A stretch of DNA of 64,000 bases from Hyphomicrobiaceae bacterium. Lineage in GTDB: Bacteria; Pseudomonadota; Alphaproteobacteria; Rhizobiales; Xanthobacteraceae. Numbering within the stretch: position 1 is the first letter of the stretch; every line of letters starts with the position of its first letter. Below are positions 1,570 through 46,233 of this stretch, one piece after another. Location: NCBI GenBank assembly GCA_947472885.1, contig CANJBX010000005.1, positions 1 to 64,000 of the forward strand, given 5' to 3'. Made by a program: the position numbers and the translations under genes. The notes under the pieces were generated by a model, which saw nothing but the letters and a program-made list of their open reading frames with translations, did no database searches and had not been told where the DNA came from.

Positions 1570-2337
1570 TTACAGCCACCGCCGGGCAAAAAACGCCGCG
1601 GTCATCACGACCGACAGCACGATGACGCCCATCCTTATGTGCTGATGGCTGAGCCTCCGCGCGCCATGCGCGCCGGCAAAGCCGCCGATCACCGCGCCGG
1701 CGATCATCACCGCCGTCTCGATCCACCACACCTGCCCGGAAAACAGAAACAGCGCGACCGCCGTCGTGTTGGCGCCCGCGACCACCACAGTGCGCGTCGG
1801 CCCCATGACTTTCAGGTTGGCTTCGCTCATCAGGCTCCATGCCGCCATCATGAGGATACCGACCGCGCCGCCGAAGTAGCCGCCGTAGATTGCCAGCACG
1901 AACTGCACAACGAGGACCGCGACCGGCCCGATATGTACGTAGCGGCGCAGCGCCAGCCCGGCTTCGCGTCCGAACACGAATGCCAGGGTCGCCGCCAGCA
2001 ACAGCCACGGCACGATGCGGTCGAAGGCCGCCGCCGGCGTGTAAAGCAGTAGCAGGGCACCAACGCCGCCGCCGATCACGCTGACGATGAACAGTGGCTT
2101 CAGCGGCACCGGCCCGAAGGCCCGAAAATCGTTGCGATAGGCCCAGGCGCTCGCCAGCGCCGCAGGCCACATCGCCACCGTACTGGACACATTGGCCGAC
2201 AGCGCCGGCAATCCGAGAAACACCAGCACGGGAAACGTCACGAACGAACCGCCGCCGGCAGCCGCGTTCATGGCGCCCGCGATGAATCCCGTCGCGGCGA
2301 GGATAAGGAAATAGATCACGCACCGACATTCCGGCAC
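1570..2337 (-). CDS. TauE/SafE family sulfite exporter-like membrane protein
   Basis: Multi-TM protein with GFIAGAMNAAAGGGSFVTFPVL signature; convergent with the preceding gene. Confidence 0.85.
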   Translation of the reverse strand: MPECRCVIYFLILAATGFIAGAMNAAAGGGSFVTFPVLVFLGLPALSANVSSTVAMWPAALASAWAYRNDFRAFGPVPLKPLFIVSVIGGGVGALLLLYTPAAAFDRIVPWLLLAATLAFVFGREAGLALRRYVHIGPVAVLVVQFVLAIYGGYFGGAVGILMMAAWSLMSEANLKVMGPTRTVVVAGANTTAVALFLFSGQVWWIETAVMIAGAVIGGFAGAHGARRLSHQHIRMGVIVLSVVMTAAFFARRWL

Positions 2338-2700
2338 GGCCCGGTGCCGCGCAATGAGTCATTCACGCAGTTCGCCTTCGCCGGAAGCGAAACCGGCGTC
2401 GGCGGCGAGGAAAAAGAGTCCTATTTGCAACGCTCCCGGTGAACTTTTGCCGTTCACGATCTGGACTCTTTGGGCGGAGTCCCGATGCAGGTAGATTGGA
2501 CCGATTCGGGGGCCACCCGCGATCTCGGCTGATGGCGCGTTGACGTGACCATCAGCAAGTCTGGCTACGGCCTCCTCGTGTGATCTGCGTATTTATTTCC
2601 GCCGCGTCTTCGGTCCTGAAAGGACTGCGGATGATCGGCGGATTCGGGCGATTCCGGTGGCGGGGCTTGCTGCCTGCCGGATCGATCAAGGGCTGCGGGA

Positions 2701-5187
2701 ATGCGGGTTGCGATCCAATCGATTGGGTCCGGGATTTTCCGGCTGCGCGTCGCGCAGCGCAGCTTCAGCGCCGCCGCATTCACCCTGCTGCCTGTCACCG
2801 CGAAAGCCGAAGGGCTCGACCTTTCCCTGTTCAAGACCACGCTTGCTGCCGCGCATCATGAGTACATCGCCTATTCGGTGATGTTCGGCGTGCTGGTATT
2901 CGGCGTCGTCTGCGCCGCCATGCTGGTGCGCACGCGCAACCACGCCGCCGCCGACCGCGCCGCCGCCGGTATCAAGATCAATGCCCTCAAGGGCGAAATC
3001 GACCGCGCCAACACGCTGCTGCGCATCGAACCGCAGGTGCTGGTGGCATGGCCCGCCGAGGACGGCGAGCCGGAGATCATCGGCAATGCCGCCGTCGTCG
3101 CCGGAAAGCCCGCGGCGATCCTTTCCTTCGATACGTGGCTTGACCCGGAAGCCGCGCGCGAACTCACCGAGGCCGTCGCGGCGCTGCGCGAACACGGCGA
3201 CAGTTTCACGCTGCCGATGACCGTCTCCGTGGGCCACCAGATCGAGGCCGATGGCCGTGCGGTCGGCGGACGCGCCGTATTGCGGCTGCGGCAGGTCAGC
3301 GGCATTGCCCAGCAATTGGCGAAAGTCACCGCCGAACACCGCCAGCTGCAAAAGCGCGTCGAAGCGCTGCGCGTGCTGGTCGAGACGGTGCCGTCGCCGA
3401 TCTGGCTGCGCAACGAAGCCAACGAGCTGGTGTTTGCCAACAAGGCCTATGCCGACGCCGTCGAGAGCAATCCGGCCGACGCCGTCGCAAACCACACCGA
3501 ACTGCTCGATCACAGCGCACGCGAGGAACTCCGCCTCGGCATCGCCAACGGCAGCTTCTATGCCAAGCGCCTGCCCGCCGTCGTCGCCGGCGAGCGCCGC
3601 GTCCTCGACGTGTTCGGCGTGCCGACCGCCAACGGCAGCGCCGGCATCGCCATCGACGCCACCGAAGCGGAAGCGCTGCGCGCCAGAATGATGCGCATGC
3701 TCGACGCGCACCGCTCGACGCTCGACCAGCTTGCCACCGCCGTTGCGATCTTCGACGCCCAGCGCCGCCTGACGTTCTACAACGCCGCCTACGCGCTGCT
3801 TTGGGAACTCGACGCCGGGTTCCTCGATCAGGCCCCGAGCGACTCGCAGATCCTTGAACAGCTACGCGCCGCGCGCCGCCTCCCCGAGCAACAGGACTTC
3901 CGGGCGTGGCGCACGCAACTCCACGAGGCCTATCAGGCCGTCGAAGCGCGCCAGCACGAATGGCACCTGCCCGATGGCCGCACCTTGCGCGTCGTCACCA
4001 CGCCGAACTCCGAAGGCGGCGTCACCTATCTGTTCGACGACGTCACCGAAAGCCTCGACCTTGCGCGGCGCTTCGATGCGCTCATCCGCGTGCAGGGCGA
4101 AACACTCGACAACCTCGGCGAAGCCGTCGCGGTGTTCGGCAGCGACGGCCGCCTGCGGCTTTCCAATCCGGCCTTCGCGCAGATGTGGCGGCTTGAAATT
4201 CCCGAACTCACCGAACGCCCGCATATCGAAAGCATCATCGCCCGCTTCCGCACACTCACCAACGACGAGACGATGCTGCAGGAACTGCGCGCGTCGGTCA
4301 CGGCGCTGGAAGTCCGCCGCCCGGCCGACCTTCGCATCGAGCGCGTCGATGGCGCGATCCTCGATTGCTCGGCGCAGCCGCTGCCGGATGGCGCAACGCT
4401 GGTGACGTTCATCGACATCACGGCCTCGGTGAATGTCGAACGCGCGCTGGTCGAGAAGAACGAGGCACTGGTCGCCGCCGACCATCTCAAGGAAGCGTTC
4501 CTGCAGCACATGTCCTACGAGCTGCGTTCGCCGCTGACCAACATCACCGGCTTCGCCTACTTCCTCGACGACGAGAAGACCGGCCCGCTCAACGAGCGCC
4601 AGCGCGAATACCTCGGCTACATCACCTATTCGACCAATGCGCTCCTCGCCATCGTCGATAATATTCTCGATCTCGCCACCATCGACGCCGGCGTCATGAA
4701 GCTCGATCTCGGCCCGGTCGAAATCCGCCGCACCATGCAGGCGGCGGCGGAAGGCGTGCAGGACCGCGTCGCCAAGGACGGCATCCATCTCGAACTGCGC
4801 GCCGCGCCCGACGTCGGTACCTTCGTCGCCGACGAGCGCCGCGTCCGTCAGGTGCTGTTCAATCTCCTGTCCAATGCCATCGGCTTCTCGCCGCAGGGCA
4901 GCACGGTCACACTCACCGCCGAAAGCCGCTCCGACGCCGTGGTGTTCACCGTCAGCGATCAGGGCCCCGGCATCGCCGAGGACCGCAAGGACAAGGTGTT
5001 CGACTCGTTCGAGACCCAGTCCGTCGGCTCGCGCCATCGCGGCGTCGGCCTCGGCCTGTCGCTGGTGCGCTCCTTCGTCGAACTGCACGGCGGCTCGGTC
5101 CGTATCGATTCCGTCGCAGGACAGGGCACCACCGTCACCTGCATCTTCCCCCACGAACACGAAGCAGCCCGCACCGCCGCCGAATAG
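2701..5187 (+). CDS. divL: DivL-like PAS-domain histidine kinase homologue (H-box Tyr); exact start uncertain
   Basis: Several PAS-like segments, DHp segment LKEAFLQHMSYELRSPLTNITGF with Tyr at the usual His position, HATPase motifs (NLLSNAI, DQGPGI, GVGLGLSLV); located directly upstream of tsaE. Confidence 0.85.
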   Translation: MRVAIQSIGSGIFRLRVAQRSFSAAAFTLLPVTAKAEGLDLSLFKTTLAAAHHEYIAYSVMFGVLVFGVVCAAMLVRTRNHAAADRAAAGIKINALKGEIDRANTLLRIEPQVLVAWPAEDGEPEIIGNAAVVAGKPAAILSFDTWLDPEAARELTEAVAALREHGDSFTLPMTVSVGHQIEADGRAVGGRAVLRLRQVSGIAQQLAKVTAEHRQLQKRVEALRVLVETVPSPIWLRNEANELVFANKAYADAVESNPADAVANHTELLDHSAREELRLGIANGSFYAKRLPAVVAGERRVLDVFGVPTANGSAGIAIDATEAEALRARMMRMLDAHRSTLDQLATAVAIFDAQRRLTFYNAAYALLWELDAGFLDQAPSDSQILEQLRAARRLPEQQDFRAWRTQLHEAYQAVEARQHEWHLPDGRTLRVVTTPNSEGGVTYLFDDVTESLDLARRFDALIRVQGETLDNLGEAVAVFGSDGRLRLSNPAFAQMWRLEIPELTERPHIESIIARFRTLTNDETMLQELRASVTALEVRRPADLRIERVDGAILDCSAQPLPDGATLVTFIDITASVNVERALVEKNEALVAADHLKEAFLQHMSYELRSPLTNITGFAYFLDDEKTGPLNERQREYLGYITYSTNALLAIVDNILDLATIDAGVMKLDLGPVEIRRTMQAAAEGVQDRVAKDGIHLELRAAPDVGTFVADERRVRQVLFNLLSNAIGFSPQGSTVTLTAESRSDAVVFTVSDQGPGIAEDRKDKVFDSFETQSVGSRHRGVGLGLSLVRSFVELHGGSVRIDSVAGQGTTVTCIFPHEHEAARTAAE

Positions 5188-18362: not shown

Positions 18363-18415
18363 TACCTCTCCCCAGTGGGGAGAGGTCGGCCGCGCAGCGG
18401 CCGGGTGAGGGGGAT
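18363..18415. repeat. Palindromic repeat, left copy flanking the DUF559 ORF
   Basis: TACCTCTCCCCAGTGGGGAGAGGTCGGCCGCGCAGCGGCCGGGTGAGGGGGAT; inverse-oriented relative to 18766..18817. Confidence 0.9.
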
Positions 18416-18758
18416 GGACTGGTTCAAGCGGAAAGCGCGCAAGCTGCGTGCATCCCAGACCAGCGCCGAAGCGCGGCTCTGGCAGGCGCTGCGCAACCGG
18501 CGAATGGCACGCTGGAAATTCCGGCGGCAACATTCCATTGATCGATACATCGTCGATTTCGTTTCATTGGAAGGCAAACTGATAGTCGAAGTCGATGGCG
18601 CAACCCACGGCACAGATGCCGAAGTTAAACGCGACGCCGAACGAACACATTTGATCGAGACGCTCGGATTCCTGATCGTCCGTGTCACCAATACTGACGT
18701 ATATGAAAATCTCGATGGCGTGCTGGAGATGATCGACCAGACCTTGCGGCCCGATTGA
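18414..18758 (+). CDS. DUF559 (Vsr-like/PD-(D/E)XK) endonuclease-domain protein
   Basis: 114 aa MDWFKRKARKLRASQTSAEARLWQALRNRRMARWKFRRQHSIDRYIVDFVSLEGKLIVEVDGATH...; typical DUF559 motifs VDF and VEVDGATH. Confidence 0.88.
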   Translation: MDWFKRKARKLRASQTSAEARLWQALRNRRMARWKFRRQHSIDRYIVDFVSLEGKLIVEVDGATHGTDAEVKRDAERTHLIETLGFLIVRVTNTDVYENLDGVLEMIDQTLRPD

Positions 18759-18765
18759 GAACAGC

Positions 18766-18817
18766 ATCCCCTCACCCGCGCGCTGCGCGCGCGACCTCTC
18801 CCCGCCGGGGAGAGGTA
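18766..18817. repeat. Palindromic repeat, right copy flanking the DUF559 ORF (inverted)
   Basis: ATCCCCTCACCCGCGCGCTGCGCGCGCGACCTCTCCCCGCCGGGGAGAGGTA; reverse complement matches the left copy architecture. Confidence 0.9.
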
Positions 18818-36182: not shown

Positions 36183-36224
36183 TCCCCTCACCCCAACCCT
36201 CTCCCCGCAAGCGGGGAGAGGGAG
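36183..36224. repeat. Second, inverted copy of the same repeat family
   Basis: TCCCCTCACCCCAACCCTCTCCCCGCAAGCGGGGAGAGGGA. Confidence 0.8.
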
Positions 36225-37986: not shown

Positions 37987-39759
37987 ATGTCGAACGATTT
38001 TACTGCGGAGCAGAAACGGTATCTCGAAGGCTTCATGTTAGGCCTTCAGGTCGCGCGTGTCGGCCGCAAGCCGGGCGCAGCAGCCATCAGCGGCGGAAAT
38101 GCAGAGCCGACCGGACCTGAAGCCGCACACCTCAAGGCGCAGCAGGCGACGGTCGCGCGCGGCGGCAAGCTCGTCGATCAGGAGAAGTGGAAGCGCGGTC
38201 TGCCGCATCCGTTCGATGCTTACGGCACGTTGAAAGATCAGGCGGACAAGAACGAACCGCCGAAGCCGATGGATAATTTCCGCTGGCGCTATCACGGCCT
38301 GTTCTATGTAGCGCCGGCACAGGAGTCCTACATGTGCCGGATGCGGATGCCGAACGGCATGCTCAAGCACTGGCAGATGGCGGGTCTTGCCGATGTCGCG
38401 GAGGATTTCGCCGGCGGCTTCTCCCATGTGACGACGCGCGCCAACCTGCAGATCCGTGAAATCCTGCCCAGGAACGCAATCAACGTCCTTGAAGGCATCA
38501 CGGACCTGGGCCTGACAGCCCGCGGCGCAGGCGCCGACAACATCCGCAACGTCACCGGCAGCTCCACCGCCGGCATCGACCCGCTGGAATTGCTCGACAC
38601 GCGGCCTTATGCCCGCGAATGGCACTATCACATTCTCAATGACCGCTCGCTTTACGGGCTGCCGCGCAAATTCAACGTGGCGTTCGACGGCGCGGGAGCG
38701 CTGGCGACGCTGGAAGACACCAACGACATCGGCTTCCAGGCAGTCGATGTGCGCGAAGGCTTCGATGCCGAACCCGGCATCTGGTTTCGCCTGACACTTG
38801 GCGGCATCACCGGCCACAAGGACTTCGCGCGTGACACCGGCGTGATCGTGAAACTCAACGAGGCGACGAAAGTCGCCGACGCCGTCGTGCGCGTGTTCAT
38901 CGACCACGGCAACCGCACCGACCGCAACAAGGCGCGGCTGAAGTATGTCCTCGACGACATGGGATTCGAAAAATTCCTGTCGCTGATGGAGGAGAAGCTC
39001 GGCGCGCCGCTCACCCGCATCCCGGCGGAAGCCATCAACCCGCGCCCGCAGTTCGACCGCCTCGCGCATATTGGCGTGCACCGGCAGAAGCAGGAAGGCC
39101 TCAACTGGGTCGGTGTCGTGCTGCAGACCGGCAAGCTCACCGTCGAGCAGATGCGTGGCATTGCGAAGATCTCAGCTGATCTCGGCGACGGCGATATCCG
39201 CCTCACGGTCTGGCAGAATCTGCTGATCTCCGGCGTCGCCGACGACAAGGTTGAACTCGCGAAAGCCGCGATCTCCGCCATCGGCCTGACGACCGATGCC
39301 ACTACCATCCGCGCTGGCCTTGTTGCCTGCACCGGCAACGCCGGCTGCAAGTTCGCCGCCTCCAACACCAAGCGCCATGCCGAAGACATCGCACAATGGT
39401 GCGAGCAGCGCGTGCAGATCGACACACCGATCAATATTCACCTCACCGGCTGCCACCATTCCTGTGCGCAACACTACATCAGCGACATCGGCCTCATCGG
39501 CGCGCGCGTCGCGGTGTCCGACGAAGGCGACACGGTCGAGGGCTACCACATCTTCGTTGGTGGCGGCTTTGGACCGCAGGCCGGCGTCGGTCAGGAAATC
39601 TTCCATGACGTAAAAGCGCCCGATGTGCCACAGACCGTCGAAAGCCTGCTGCGCGCCTATCTTACCCATCGCGAAGCCGATGAGACATTCCTCGCTTTCA
39701 GCCGCCGCACCACGGTCGATGCATTGAAGGCCATGTGCGCCGGGGAGATCGCGGCATGA
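37987..39759 (+). CDS. nirA: NirA family assimilatory nitrite/sulfite reductase (siroheme-[4Fe-4S])
   Basis: CTGNAGCKFA and TGCHHSCAQHYISDIGL cluster motifs; 590 aa. Confidence 0.9.
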   Translation: MSNDFTAEQKRYLEGFMLGLQVARVGRKPGAAAISGGNAEPTGPEAAHLKAQQATVARGGKLVDQEKWKRGLPHPFDAYGTLKDQADKNEPPKPMDNFRWRYHGLFYVAPAQESYMCRMRMPNGMLKHWQMAGLADVAEDFAGGFSHVTTRANLQIREILPRNAINVLEGITDLGLTARGAGADNIRNVTGSSTAGIDPLELLDTRPYAREWHYHILNDRSLYGLPRKFNVAFDGAGALATLEDTNDIGFQAVDVREGFDAEPGIWFRLTLGGITGHKDFARDTGVIVKLNEATKVADAVVRVFIDHGNRTDRNKARLKYVLDDMGFEKFLSLMEEKLGAPLTRIPAEAINPRPQFDRLAHIGVHRQKQEGLNWVGVVLQTGKLTVEQMRGIAKISADLGDGDIRLTVWQNLLISGVADDKVELAKAAISAIGLTTDATTIRAGLVACTGNAGCKFAASNTKRHAEDIAQWCEQRVQIDTPINIHLTGCHHSCAQHYISDIGLIGARVAVSDEGDTVEGYHIFVGGGFGPQAGVGQEIFHDVKAPDVPQTVESLLRAYLTHREADETFLAFSRRTTVDALKAMCAGEIAA

Positions 39760-41438
39760 ACCAGTCCGTGTTTCCCCCCGCCATCTCCCTGATCCCGGAC
39801 ACTGCGCCATTCACCGCCGAACAGCGCACCTGGCTCAACGGCTTCCTCGCGGGTCTCGTCTCACTCGATGGCGCAGGCGTGACCGCGCTGTCGCCGGATC
39901 AATCTGCCGCGCTGCTGCCGAACGCACCGTCCGCGCCGAAAGGTCCGCTGGACGATGGCGATGACGGCGAAGCGCCGTGGCACGACCAGACCATGCCGCT
40001 CGACGAGCGCATGAAACTAGCCGCCGGCAGGCCATTGCGCCGGCGAATGATGGCAGCAATGGCGCAACAGGACTGCGGACAATGCGGATACAACTGTTCC
40101 GACTATTCCGACAAGCTGGTCCTTGGCGAGGAGACGCGGCTGAATCTCTGCGTTCCCGGCGGCAAGGAAACGCTGCGAATGTTGAAGACGCTGCAGCCCG
40201 AGATCGGCAGCTCGCCGGCACCATCTCGGCCTTCGCCAGCGGAAGCAAAAGCGCCGACAACGATGCCGGGTGCCGGTGCTACGGCTGCACCAATGTCCGG
40301 CTCGGTCTCGCCAAGCGCACCAACACCCGGCACTTCGCGCGAAGCTCCGGCTGACGCGATCTTCCGCGCCCGCACCAGGCTGACCGGAGAAGGTTCCGAA
40401 AAAGACACCTACCATATCGAAATCGACCTCGCCGGCAGCGGCATCGACTATGCCGTCGGCGATGCTTTCGGACTTTATCCGCGCAACGATCCGGGTCTGG
40501 TTTCAGCCGTCATTTCCGAACTCGGTGCACAACCCGACTTCGAGATCAACGGCCGCACCCTGCGTCAGGTGCTGACCGACAACGTCTCGCTGTCGCTCGC
40601 GCCCGATGTGCTGTTCCAGTTGTTCTCCTACATCACCGGCGGCGACCGCCGGCAGAAGGCCAAGCTGCTGGCCGACGGCGGCGACCCGGACGGCGACGCC
40701 GCGACGCTCGACGTGCTGGCGGCGCTGCAGAAGTTCAGGGGCGTGCGCGTCGATCCCGAAGCCTTCGTGGAAGCGCTCGATCCGCTCCAGCCGCGCCTCT
40801 ATTCGATCTCGTCGTCGCTCAAGACCTCGCCGAACGCCGTGACGCTCACGGTCGATACCGTCCGCTATGAAATCGAAAGGCGGCAGCGCCTCGGTGTCGC
40901 CTCGACCTTCCTCGCCGACCGCATCACCACCGGCGACAAGATCAGGGCCTATGTCCAGAAGGCCGGCCACTTCAACCTGCCGGAAGATCCGGCGACGCCG
41001 ATCATCATGATCGGACCCGGCACCGGCGTCGCGCCGTTCCGCGCCTTCCTGCATGACCGCATGGCGTCGGGCGCAACCGGCAAGAACTGGCTGTTCTACG
41101 GCCACCGCCGCCGCGACACCGATTTCTTCTACGAGGACGAGTTCCTCGACATGAAGGCGAAGAACGTGCTGACACGCCTGTCGCTCGCATGGTCGCGCGA
41201 CACTGCCGAGAAATTCTATGTGCAGGATCGCATGCGGCAGGTCGGCCGCGACGTCTGGGCCTGGCTCTCCGAAGGCGCGCACATCTATGTCTGCGGCGAC
41301 GCCAAGCGGATGGCCAAGGACGTTGAGCGTACGCTGGTCGATATTGTTGCGCAGCATGGCGTGCGCACGCTCGAGGAAGCCGTCGCTTTCGTCGGCGCGC
41401 TCAAGAAGCAGCATCGCTATCACCAGGACGTTTACTGA
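39756..41438 (+). CDS. Sulfite-reductase-alpha-like FAD/NADPH oxidoreductase with N-terminal FeS (CxxCGYxC) domain
   Basis: QQDCGQCGYNCSDYSDKLVLGEETRLNLCVPGG; downstream FAD domain (PRLYSISSS) and NAD(P) domain (IIMIGPGTGVAPFRAFLHDR); ATGA overlap with nirA. Confidence 0.85.
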   Translation: MNQSVFPPAISLIPDTAPFTAEQRTWLNGFLAGLVSLDGAGVTALSPDQSAALLPNAPSAPKGPLDDGDDGEAPWHDQTMPLDERMKLAAGRPLRRRMMAAMAQQDCGQCGYNCSDYSDKLVLGEETRLNLCVPGGKETLRMLKTLQPEIGSSPAPSRPSPAEAKAPTTMPGAGATAAPMSGSVSPSAPTPGTSREAPADAIFRARTRLTGEGSEKDTYHIEIDLAGSGIDYAVGDAFGLYPRNDPGLVSAVISELGAQPDFEINGRTLRQVLTDNVSLSLAPDVLFQLFSYITGGDRRQKAKLLADGGDPDGDAATLDVLAALQKFRGVRVDPEAFVEALDPLQPRLYSISSSLKTSPNAVTLTVDTVRYEIERRQRLGVASTFLADRITTGDKIRAYVQKAGHFNLPEDPATPIIMIGPGTGVAPFRAFLHDRMASGATGKNWLFYGHRRRDTDFFYEDEFLDMKAKNVLTRLSLAWSRDTAEKFYVQDRMRQVGRDVWAWLSEGAHIYVCGDAKRMAKDVERTLVDIVAQHGVRTLEEAVAFVGALKKQHRYHQDVY

Positions 41439-42594
41439 GCCGCCATGAACGCACCGCTGCACACACCTGCGCCGGTTCGCACCACCTGCCCCTATTGCAG
41501 GGTGGGCTGCGGGCTCAAGGTGCAGCCGGGCGCGGTCGGCAAGACGACGGTCGCCGGCGACGAGGACCATCCGGCGAATTTCTCACGGCTGTGTTCAAAG
41601 GGCGCAGCGCTCGGCGAAACCCTCGGCCTCGATGATCGCCTGCTGTATCCGCTGATGGTCGGCGCGGACGGTGCGCGTGCGCGCACCACCTGGCCCAGGG
41701 CGCTCGATGCGGTCGCCGACGGCTTCAAGCGCATCATCGGCGAGCATGGCCCCAACGCTGTCGCGTTCTATCTCTCCGGGCAATTGCTGACCGAGGATTA
41801 CTACGTCCCCAACAAGCTGATGAAGGGCTTTATCGGCTCGGCCAATGTCGATACCAACTCGCGCCTCTGCATGGCGTCGTCGGTCGTCGGCCACAACCGC
41901 GCGTTCGGTTCGGACACGGTCCCCGGCGCGTATGAAGACCTCGACTCCGCGGACCTCATCATCCTGGTCGGCTCCAACACCGCATGGTGCCATCCGGTTC
42001 TCTATCAGCGCATAGTGAAAAACCGCAACGAACGCGGCGCCAAGATCGTCGTCATCGACCCGCGCCGCACCGCGACCTGCGAAGACGCCGACCTGTTTCT
42101 CCCCGTCGCGCCCGGCACCGACACCATTTTATTTTCAGCGCTGCTGGCACACCTCGCCGACACGCTCGCCATCGACTTCAGATATATCGACAGCCACACG
42201 ACCGGGTTCGAGAACGCGCTGGCGCGCGCGAGAGAGATCGCGCCGAACATCATCTCCGCCGCCAAGGCATGCGGCATCGTCGCCGAAGACCTCGCGCGCT
42301 TCTGCAACCTGTTCCGCAGGACCGCCAAGGTCGTCACCTGCTACTCGCAGGGCGTCAACCAGTCGGCGCAGGGCACCGACAAGGTCAACGCCATCATCAA
42401 CTGCCACCTTGCGACCGGCCGCATCGGCAAGCCGGGCATGGGGCCGTTCTCGCTGACCGGCCAGCCGAACGCCATGGGCGGCCGTGAGGTCGGCGGTCTT
42501 GCCAATCAGCTCGCTGCCCACATGAAGTTCAACGACGCCGACATCGACCGCGTACAGCGGTTCTGGCACGCGCCGAACATGGCGAAGCGCGAAG

Positions 42595-42613
42595 GGCTGA
42601 AGGCTGAAGGCTG
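42595..42613. repeat. 7-bp tandem repeat GGCTGAA GGCTGAA GGCTG causing the nasA frame shift
   Basis: Direct reading; removal of one 7-bp unit restores ...GLKAVDMFDAIARGEIKALWVMGTNP. Confidence 0.9.
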
Positions 42614-43108
42614 TCGATATGTTCGACGCCATTGCACGCGGCGAGATCAAGGCGCTGTGGGTAATGGGAACCAATCCGGCGATGTCGCTTCCCCGCGCAA
42701 GCGCCGTGCGCGAAGCGATGAAGAAACTAGAGTTGTTCGTCGTGTCGGAAAACGTGTTGTCGAACGACACCGTCAATTCCGGCGCGCATATTCTCCTTCC
42801 TGCCGCCGCCTGGGGCGAGAAGAACGGCACCGTCACCAATTCGGAGCGCTGCATCTCGCGCCAGCGTTCGTTCCTGCCGCTGCCGGGCGAGGCCAAACCC
42901 GATTGGTGGGCGGTGGCGCAGGTCGCGCAGCGCATGGGTTTCACAGATGCGTTCGCCTACACCTCGGCGGCGCAGGTTTTCCGCGAACACGCCGCGTTGT
43001 CGGGTTTCGAGAACAACGGCACGCGCGATTTCGACATCGGCGGGCTTGCTGAAATCACCGACCGCGAATTCGATGTACTGGCGCCGGTGCAATGGCCGGT
43101 TCTTGCTG

Positions 43109-43242
43109 ATCCCTCCCCTGAAAGGGGAGGGTCCGCGCAGAGCGCGGGGGTGGGGTCTTCTTTCGCAACGACGACCCCCACCCGCTTGCCTGCGCTCGCT
43201 GCGCGAGCTGCGGCAATCGACCTCCCCCTTGCAGGGGGAGGT
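43109..43242. repeat. REPIN-like doublet of palindromic repeats inserted in frame within nasA
   Basis: ATCCCTCCCCTGAAAGGGGAGGGTCCGCGCAGAGCGCGGGGGTGGGG ... CCCCCACCCGC...CGACCTCCCCCTTGCAGGGGGAGGTA; two hairpins in inverted arrangement. Confidence 0.85.
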
Positions 43243-44451
43243 ATGAGCAAAGCCAAACGCTTCTTTGCCGACGGCAAGTTCTACACGCCCGATGGCAAGG
43301 CGCGCTTCATCGCACCGGAAATTCCGCAGCTCGGCGAAAAGCAATCCGAAGCATTCCCGCTGCGGCTCAACACCGGCCGCGTCCGTGACCAGTGGCATTC
43401 GATGACGCGCACCGGCAAGAGCGTGCGGCTTGCGTCGCATGTCGCCGAGCCTTTTGTCGAAGTGCATCCCGGGGATGCGCAGGCCGCCGGCATCAGTGAC
43501 GGCAGCTTTGCAAGGCTCACAACGGCCTATGGCGCGTGCGTACTCAAGGTCATCGTCACCGACGGCCAGCGCCAGGGTTCGCTGTTTGCGCCGATCCACT
43601 GGAGCGATGCGACCGCCTCCTCGGCGCGCATCGGCGCACTGGTGACGCCGCGGACCGACCCGCATTCCGGCCAGCCGGAAATGAAGGCGACGCCAGCCGC
43701 GATCTCGCCGGTTGAATTGCCGGTGCGCGGATTCCTGCGCTCACGGCGCAACATCGCACTGCCGGAAGATACATGGTGGGTCCGCATTGCCACCGCACAT
43801 GGACCGGAACTGCGCATTGCCAGCAAGCGCGATGTCCTGTTCTGGCATGAGTTCGCGCAGCACACGCTTGGGCAGGACGCGCAGCTGGTCGAAACCATCG
43901 ACTCCGCGCAGGGTATCTATCGCGCAGCCGCTTTCATCGACGGTGAATTCGATGGTTGCCTGTCGGTCGGCCCCGGCGACGTTGCGCTGCGCTGGGAAGG
44001 ACTGTCATCGCTGATCGCCGCCGGCGTACCCGCAGATGGATCGGCAGTCACAGTGTCGTTGAGTACCGCAATCGAGGACACCAACGACGGCCCGATGGTC
44101 TGCGCCTGTGTCGGCGTCGGACTTGAAACCATCCGCACCTGCCTGCGCTCAGGCCATGCCGCGAGCGTCGCCGATGTCGGCAAGGCAACCGGCGCCGGCA
44201 GCAACTGCGGCTCGTGCCTGCCCGAACTCAAGCGCATCGTGGCGCGGGAAAAACACGCTTCGGCAACCGCGTGATGGCCGCCATCGCCCCAGCCGCGGTT
44301 TTGGCGCGAACAGGCGTAGCGTCAGGGCGTCGCCAGACAGCACATAATTTATCCTATCGATCTCAGAAGGCCAGTAATTTTCTTATTTCCATCCGCTCAT
44401 TGCAGCCCTTTAATAGAATATCCTACTATCTGGTCATTCCCCAGCGGAGCC

Positions 44452-46148: not shown

Positions 46149-46233
46149 TACCCCTCACCCCGCGCTGCGCGCGACCCTCTCCCTCAAGGGGAGAGGGTGG
46201 ACGCGAACACAGTGAGCGGCCGGGTGAGGGGTA
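46149..46233. repeat. Palindromic repeat, same family as 18363/18766 and 36069/36183
   Basis: TACCCCTCACCCCGCGCTGCGCGCGACCCTCTCCCTCAAGGGGAGAGGGT...GGCCGGGTGAGGGGTA with inverted termini. Confidence 0.85.

Follow-up and report, generated by a model that had tools for sequence, protein, structure and literature searches.

The question raised by this locus is how a palindromic repeat came to be read as part of the nitrate reductase NasA, and whether the protein segment that it encodes was inserted or is an ancestral part of the enzyme. That selfish palindromes can spread in frame into protein genes has been known mainly from Rickettsia and from scattered REP cases. The window, which is the whole stretch of 64,000 nt analysed here, covers positions 1-64,000 of contig CANJBX010000005.1 of a Hyphomicrobiaceae bacterium (GCA_947472885.1; its own genome is called G000 below). 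In this window, a palindromic (REP-like) doublet of 134 bp lies in frame in nasA on the forward strand at 43109..43242 and is read as DPSPERGGSAQSAGVGSSFATTTPTRLPALAARAAAIDLPLAGGG. It contains two perfect palindromes, CCCTCCCCTGAAAGGGGAGGG at 43111..43131 (+) and ACCTCCCCCTTGCAGGGGGAGGT at 43220..43242 (+), which form an inverted pair, and inner inverted motifs, GGGGGTGGGGTC and GACCCCCACCC, around a spacer (43146..43183, +). The inner motifs have counterparts in other copies, which in the CCTCTCCCC subfamily are GGGTGAGGGG and CCCCTCACCC. The explanation that we prefer, with a probability of roughly 0.86, is that the block is a non-autonomous doublet of a genome-wide REP-like family which was inserted into a linker of NasA and is read through, and that the survivors of such insertions recur at tolerant linkers.

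Palindromes of the nasA-block type are not expected by chance (0.00 in shuffled windows), and the strand of the block is predicted to fold far more strongly than its shuffles (z of -7.2 as DNA and -5.6 as RNA). The first-pass annotation had described two inverted palindromes at 43109-43242 without a stop in the nasA-side frame, with ends (ATCCC... and ...GGTA) common to other copies. The sequence and the ORF check agree with this description, there being no stop codon in the frame of ORF 42619-44274, and the same ends were seen again at other copies in the genome. What was called the nasA coding frame needs a qualification, in that the block is stop-free in ORF 42619-44274 but nasA itself is spread over two frames owing to a 7-bp duplication. 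A search for an Rfam family for the block gave matches at chance level only. Elsewhere in the genome, only the palindrome parts of the block find matches, and these are partial (best 87% over 59 bases), which speaks against a repeat-mediated misjoin having put the block into nasA. The assembly is a draft of 128 contigs and the family is repetitive, as such an artefact would need, but the flanks belong to one conserved gene that stays in frame across the block, and a parallel case exists in another genome (G036), so that a misjoin is very hard to credit.

The NasA comparison comprised 109 sequences aligned around the site, namely the window and 108 homologues. The aligned region measures 110 residues in the window, 109 in L020 (a homologue in genome G036, from another genus of the same family) and 61-71, mostly 65-68, in the other 107 rows, 101 of which have 66 or 67. 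An ancestral NasA segment is ruled out by this alignment, since 107 of the 108 homologues are without the insert; the exception, L020, has a different palindrome doublet, and the same segment did not turn up in distant genera. The absence from homologues claimed in the first-pass annotation, which had called for this alignment, was thus borne out, as was the presence of an insertion, but its size of ~45 aa is better put at a net gain of ~43 codons. The insert lies between the conserved QWP and RFFADG, in a variable linker directly ahead of the Molydop_binding domain; the alignment with solved formate dehydrogenases also crosses this stretch at the WP motif. In an AF2 model of the NasA C-terminal fragment (mean pLDDT 67), residues 161-216 have a pLDDT below 50, a faint hint that the insert residues may be without structure.

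The course of events that we propose begins with a repeat family whose C-rich stems, CCTC(T)CCC..GGG(A)GAGG, are paired in inverted orientation. One doublet of this family inserted into nasA, at the linker that joins the Mo-cofactor core to the dinucleotide-binding domain at the C-terminus. Because its net length is a multiple of three and it is free of stops, it is read through as ~43 residues, rich in Pro, Gly, Ser and Ala and probably disordered, and the extra loop may be neutral. Most insertions of such presumably mobile repeats into genes would be removed by selection, and the survivors would sit at a few insertion-tolerant linkers, phase and frame permitting.

The gene itself lies in a nitrate-assimilation cluster, in which genes for a NirA family protein (37987-39759) and a sulfite reductase flavoprotein-like subunit (39735-41438) are followed by nasA. 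Mo-cofactor oxidoreductase domains, a C-terminal BFD-like [2Fe-2S] domain and the adjoining nitrite reductase genes identify it as NasA, but in the window it is not a single intact reading frame. The N-terminal part in the pre-shift frame (41445..42613, +; Molybdop_Fe4S4 and Molybdopterin domains) lies within ORF 41445-43052, and the C-terminal part with the insert (42619..44274, +; Molybdopterin end, Molydop_binding and Fer2_BFD) makes up ORF 42619-44274. The frame is shifted ~0.5 kb upstream of the insert because AAGGCTG is duplicated in tandem at 42600..42613 (+; sequence AAGGCTGAAGGCTG), where the homologues have one unit (EGLKAVDMF). As a 7-bp tandem duplication would be an unusual sequencing error, it is likely a genuine mutation, which could be older or younger than the insert. 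G000 showed no second nasA, and the copy in the window is probably not making full NasA at present. The duplication might also reflect slippage or phase variation.

The proposal of the first-pass annotation that the insert is tolerated in NasA is therefore not supported as it stands for this genome, since the gene is also frameshifted upstream. A real but lesser possibility is that the doublet entered a decaying gene, nasA of G000 being already or by now a pseudogene, in which case the open frame of the insert would be uninformative on tolerance in this genome. The 7-bp duplication, the lack of a second nasA in what was seen of the genome and the long terminal branch of the window NasA (0.51) all fit such decay. 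However, the window NasA keeps 306 of the 319 near-invariant positions, and one of the 13 differences is due to the shift itself; other divergent intact rows are much alike, with 12, 12 and 11 changes. Decay also does not account for the in-frame doublet at the same linker in the intact gene of the other genus.

In that second case, L020, the NasA frame is open over 984 aa, and the insert at the same linker is a doublet of the CCTCTCCCC subfamily (a CCTCTCCCCGCTTGCGGGGAGAGG pair) translated as APSPLPACGERSDRSAERDDPGEGASPRMRRQESPSPRPSPRKRGEGE. On the tree, the window falls within a 98%-supported group of seven NasA, the other six members of which are without the insert, and L020 falls outside this group. 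The different repeat subfamily and the different clade argue for two separate insertion events. The open frame also makes G036 a better case than the window for putative tolerance of the insert. When the L020 region was searched against 391 genomes of the family, among the matches listed only the window and L020 spanned both flanks and the insert.

The same search also matched in-frame doublets in a leucyl-tRNA synthetase (LeuRS; L157) and in a protein (L150) which, from reading its sequence, we take to be 5-oxoprolinase/hydantoinase-like. For LeuRS, translated queries found 12 genomes of 7 genera (372 genomes with a match) in which one and the same linker holds a full-size insert of ~40-60 aa (L270-L280, L295); the native linker, flanked by RLE and N/RPVxxRQVN, has 6 residues. 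For the 5-oxoprolinase-like protein, they found inserts of 38-72 aa (L300-L325), again at a single linker, which lies ahead of IRLMFMMSSGG; 26 genomes of 15 genera have them (up to 146 genomes with a match). Both searches detect in-frame inserts only and miss those out of frame. The G000 orthologues of the two proteins (L237 and L249) are without inserts. N-terminal "REP extensions" of some open frames (L148, L153, L158 and L168) were discounted as upstream DNA and not protein. With few tolerant linkers, and with phase and frame acting as a filter, recurrence at the same linker would be expected, as it is seen in NasA (2 genera), LeuRS (7) and the 5-oxoprolinase-like protein (15).

Alternatively, each gene might have received one ancestral insertion, which was passed across genera and later homogenised by the repeats of each lineage. 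The use of the same linker in many genera agrees with this idea, and so do the short flanks ENTFLPP/TTFLPP common to several LeuRS inserts of genera g34 and g4. However, insert-free rows are interspersed among the others, and the presence or absence of the insert changes state at least 10 times on the LeuRS tree and on the 5-oxoprolinase-like tree, although in both trees insert-bearing rows are over-represented and many forks are weak, and neither tree distinguishes gain from loss. Neighbours of the same genus moreover have unrelated repeat families (L300 with CCTCTCCCC versus L321 with CATCCTTCGAGACGC), and L270, with the insert, and L283, without it, are close LeuRS sisters, a difference pointing to what would be a recent event. 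In the sister pairs of LeuRS and the 5-oxoprolinase-like protein, this one included, the extracted stretches are of equal length and the empty-site alignment is not clean. Taken together, we consider a single ancestral insertion per gene unlikely.

The repeat families found among the inserts are CCTCTCCCC, CCTCCCC, CCCTCCCCTGGA, the CGTCCCCGCG type (L280 and L295) and CATCCTTCGAGACGC..CTCAGGATGAGG (L321-L323 and L325). This variety in sequence and family among inserts at one site is also hard to reconcile with a selected function, whether as RNA hairpins that adjust translation or the stability of the mRNA or as a useful protein loop. The strong predicted hairpins of the nasA block would suit a role in the transcript, and REP hairpins are known to influence mRNA fate (PMC5082802), but with the insert missing from nearly all NasA homologues (107/108) we judge a selected function quite improbable. 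Under the preferred explanation, essential or central enzymes (LeuRS, the 5-oxoprolinase-like protein and NasA) have a small number of linkers that repeatedly take inserts from unrelated repeat families, and palindromic DNA seems to have a few safe landing sites in proteins. Such recurrent inserts could chart, in nature, where proteins tolerate insertions, and could be used to test directly how repeat DNA gives rise to new protein segments.

How common the family is in G000 was determined by exact patterns, the covariance route having been dropped after MAFFT misaligned the 5' stem arms. There are 19 exact palindromes of the pattern CCTCCCCN{2,10}GGGGAGG (CCTCCCC) and 72 of CCTCTCCCCN{2,10}GGGGAGAGG (CCTCTCCCC), and a control with reversed patterns gave 0; looser patterns find further copies beyond these. 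The window holds several palindromes outside nasA, namely a CCTCTCCCC doublet of similar general type, with its left half at 18363..18386 (+) and its right half at 18793..18816 (-), a CCTCTCCCC copy at 36198..36221 (+) and a CCTCTCCC copy at 46175..46197 (-). Among the matches listed, 84 sites (41 doublets and 43 singles) were examined, with ~20 further palindromes outside this set, and at 17 of the 84 the frame stays open for 50 residues or more to either side. The ten longest of these 17 were read as possible in-frame copies and turned out to be antisense to or upstream of genes. The genome scan that the first-pass annotation had called for thus yielded only the nasA copy in frame within a conserved gene, among the 84 sites examined in the matches listed. 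Across the 41 doublets, ~2.3 of 6 frames are stop-free, from which we estimate that ~13% of hits in genes would be both in phase and free of stops (1/3 x 0.38); the in-frame state of a surviving insertion is therefore not improbable.

Insertions of this kind are already known. In a 2013 study, GTAG and CGTC REPs were found in frame in many conserved genes, often as dimers, adding 20-30 and up to 43-82 aa; the proposed neutral REP sites were linkers and loops, and different REPs occupied about the same recB site in two Xanthomonas species (PMC3733652). These REPs resemble the NasA doublet in being palindromes, often dimers, in frame in conserved genes, but they are GTAG and CGTC repeats, unlike the NasA repeat family, and differ from the present cases, in which recurrence extends over 2, 7 and 15 genera (NasA, LeuRS and 5-oxoprolinase-like protein, respectively). 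By the definition given there, the nasA block falls outside the GTAG superfamily, as it ends in ATCCC and GGTA with no GTAG tag next to the stem. CGTC REPs have a CGTC-like tag, an 8-9 bp stem beginning with A-T pairs and a CCA tail (PMC3733652), a layout that the nasA stems, which start with CCCTCCCC and ACCTCCCCC, do not share. The word "nitrate" is absent from the main text of that paper, which cites the Rickettsia RPEs as the classical in-frame case. The likeness to RPEs is one of layout, a palindromic element in frame in conserved protein genes whose peptide is apparently tolerated, and it applies both to the window, with its upstream frameshift, and to the intact L020 gene. Unlike RPEs, the nasA repeat comes from free-living alphaproteobacteria, is an inverted doublet and has mostly non-genic copies. 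The inverted halves of the doublet also correspond to the terminal inverted repeats of MITEs. Compared with the open-access literature, what appears to be new is that in each of three unrelated enzymes insertions recur at a single linker in different genera, together with the NasA pair and the link to DUF559 described below.

The first-pass annotation had called the block REPIN-like. As in REPINs with a RAYT, the repeat is an inverted doublet of short palindromes with a short spacer, dispersed (84 sites, 41 doublets, among the matches listed), mostly non-genic and non-autonomous, but the RAYT that should be flanked by the same REP is not found. One RAYT was detected in G000 (L174, NF047646, E 1.4e-55), and it is flanked on both sides (L174 1300-2140) by GTAGGGCGGATTA palindrome pairs, which are GTAG-type and a family distinct from the nasA repeat, with no CCTC palindrome within its 3.3-kb locus. 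It is therefore not an evident partner of the C-rich family.

Another candidate partner is DUF559 (PF04480), a putative nuclease. Its loci share the CCTC(T)CCC..GGG(A)GAGG palindrome type and the doublet layout with the nasA block, with the difference that the spacer holds the gene. In the window, a DUF559 gene (18414..18758, +; E 1.4e-34) lies between the halves of the doublet at 18363-18816, and a second one in G000 (L219 1502-1961) likewise fills the space between two inverted CCTCTCCCC halves, although these two cases, noticed via fetched repeat sites, are a biased sample. We surveyed 25 DUF559 loci from public plasmid records (L330-L355), picked by protein similarity alone and excluding L353, in which the domain is within a large protein. 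C-rich palindromes lie within 200 bp of the DUF559 domain at 14 of the 25 loci, on both sides in 5, compared with a mean of 0.53 loci and a maximum of 2 for random 400-bp stretches of the same loci (2000 draws); the filter was composed after the first loci had been viewed, and near-duplicates from Azospirillum make the effective n smaller. Loci with such palindromes come from, among others, Azospirillum, Sinorhizobium, Sphingomonas, Sphingobium, Novosphingobium, Methylobacterium, Deinococcus and Photobacterium. Judged from these sequences, the survey suggests a previously unreported association of DUF559 with C-rich palindromes, and we found no relevant paper on DUF559 with palindromes or REPs in the open-access literature.

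Tentatively, and with the odds slightly against it, the C-rich doublets could be a further REP-like mobile class, whose autonomous form has DUF559 between the halves and whose non-autonomous offspring include the nasA doublet and most of those in LeuRS and the 5-oxoprolinase-like protein. If so, DUF559 would stand to the C-rich repeats as RAYT stands to the GTAG REPs. We hypothesize that the DUF559 nuclease moves the repeats, and the association makes it a candidate, open to testing, for the enzyme on which a widespread class of repeats would depend. On plasmids, DUF559 also occurs within operons (sufB-DUF559-sufC, NAD(P) transhydrogenase subunits and hpa genes), and a palindrome passing the filter is not present at all of these. 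On the Photobacterium plasmid (L346, ~1839-3297), about eleven CCTCCCC palindromes are arrayed directly after the DUF559 gene.
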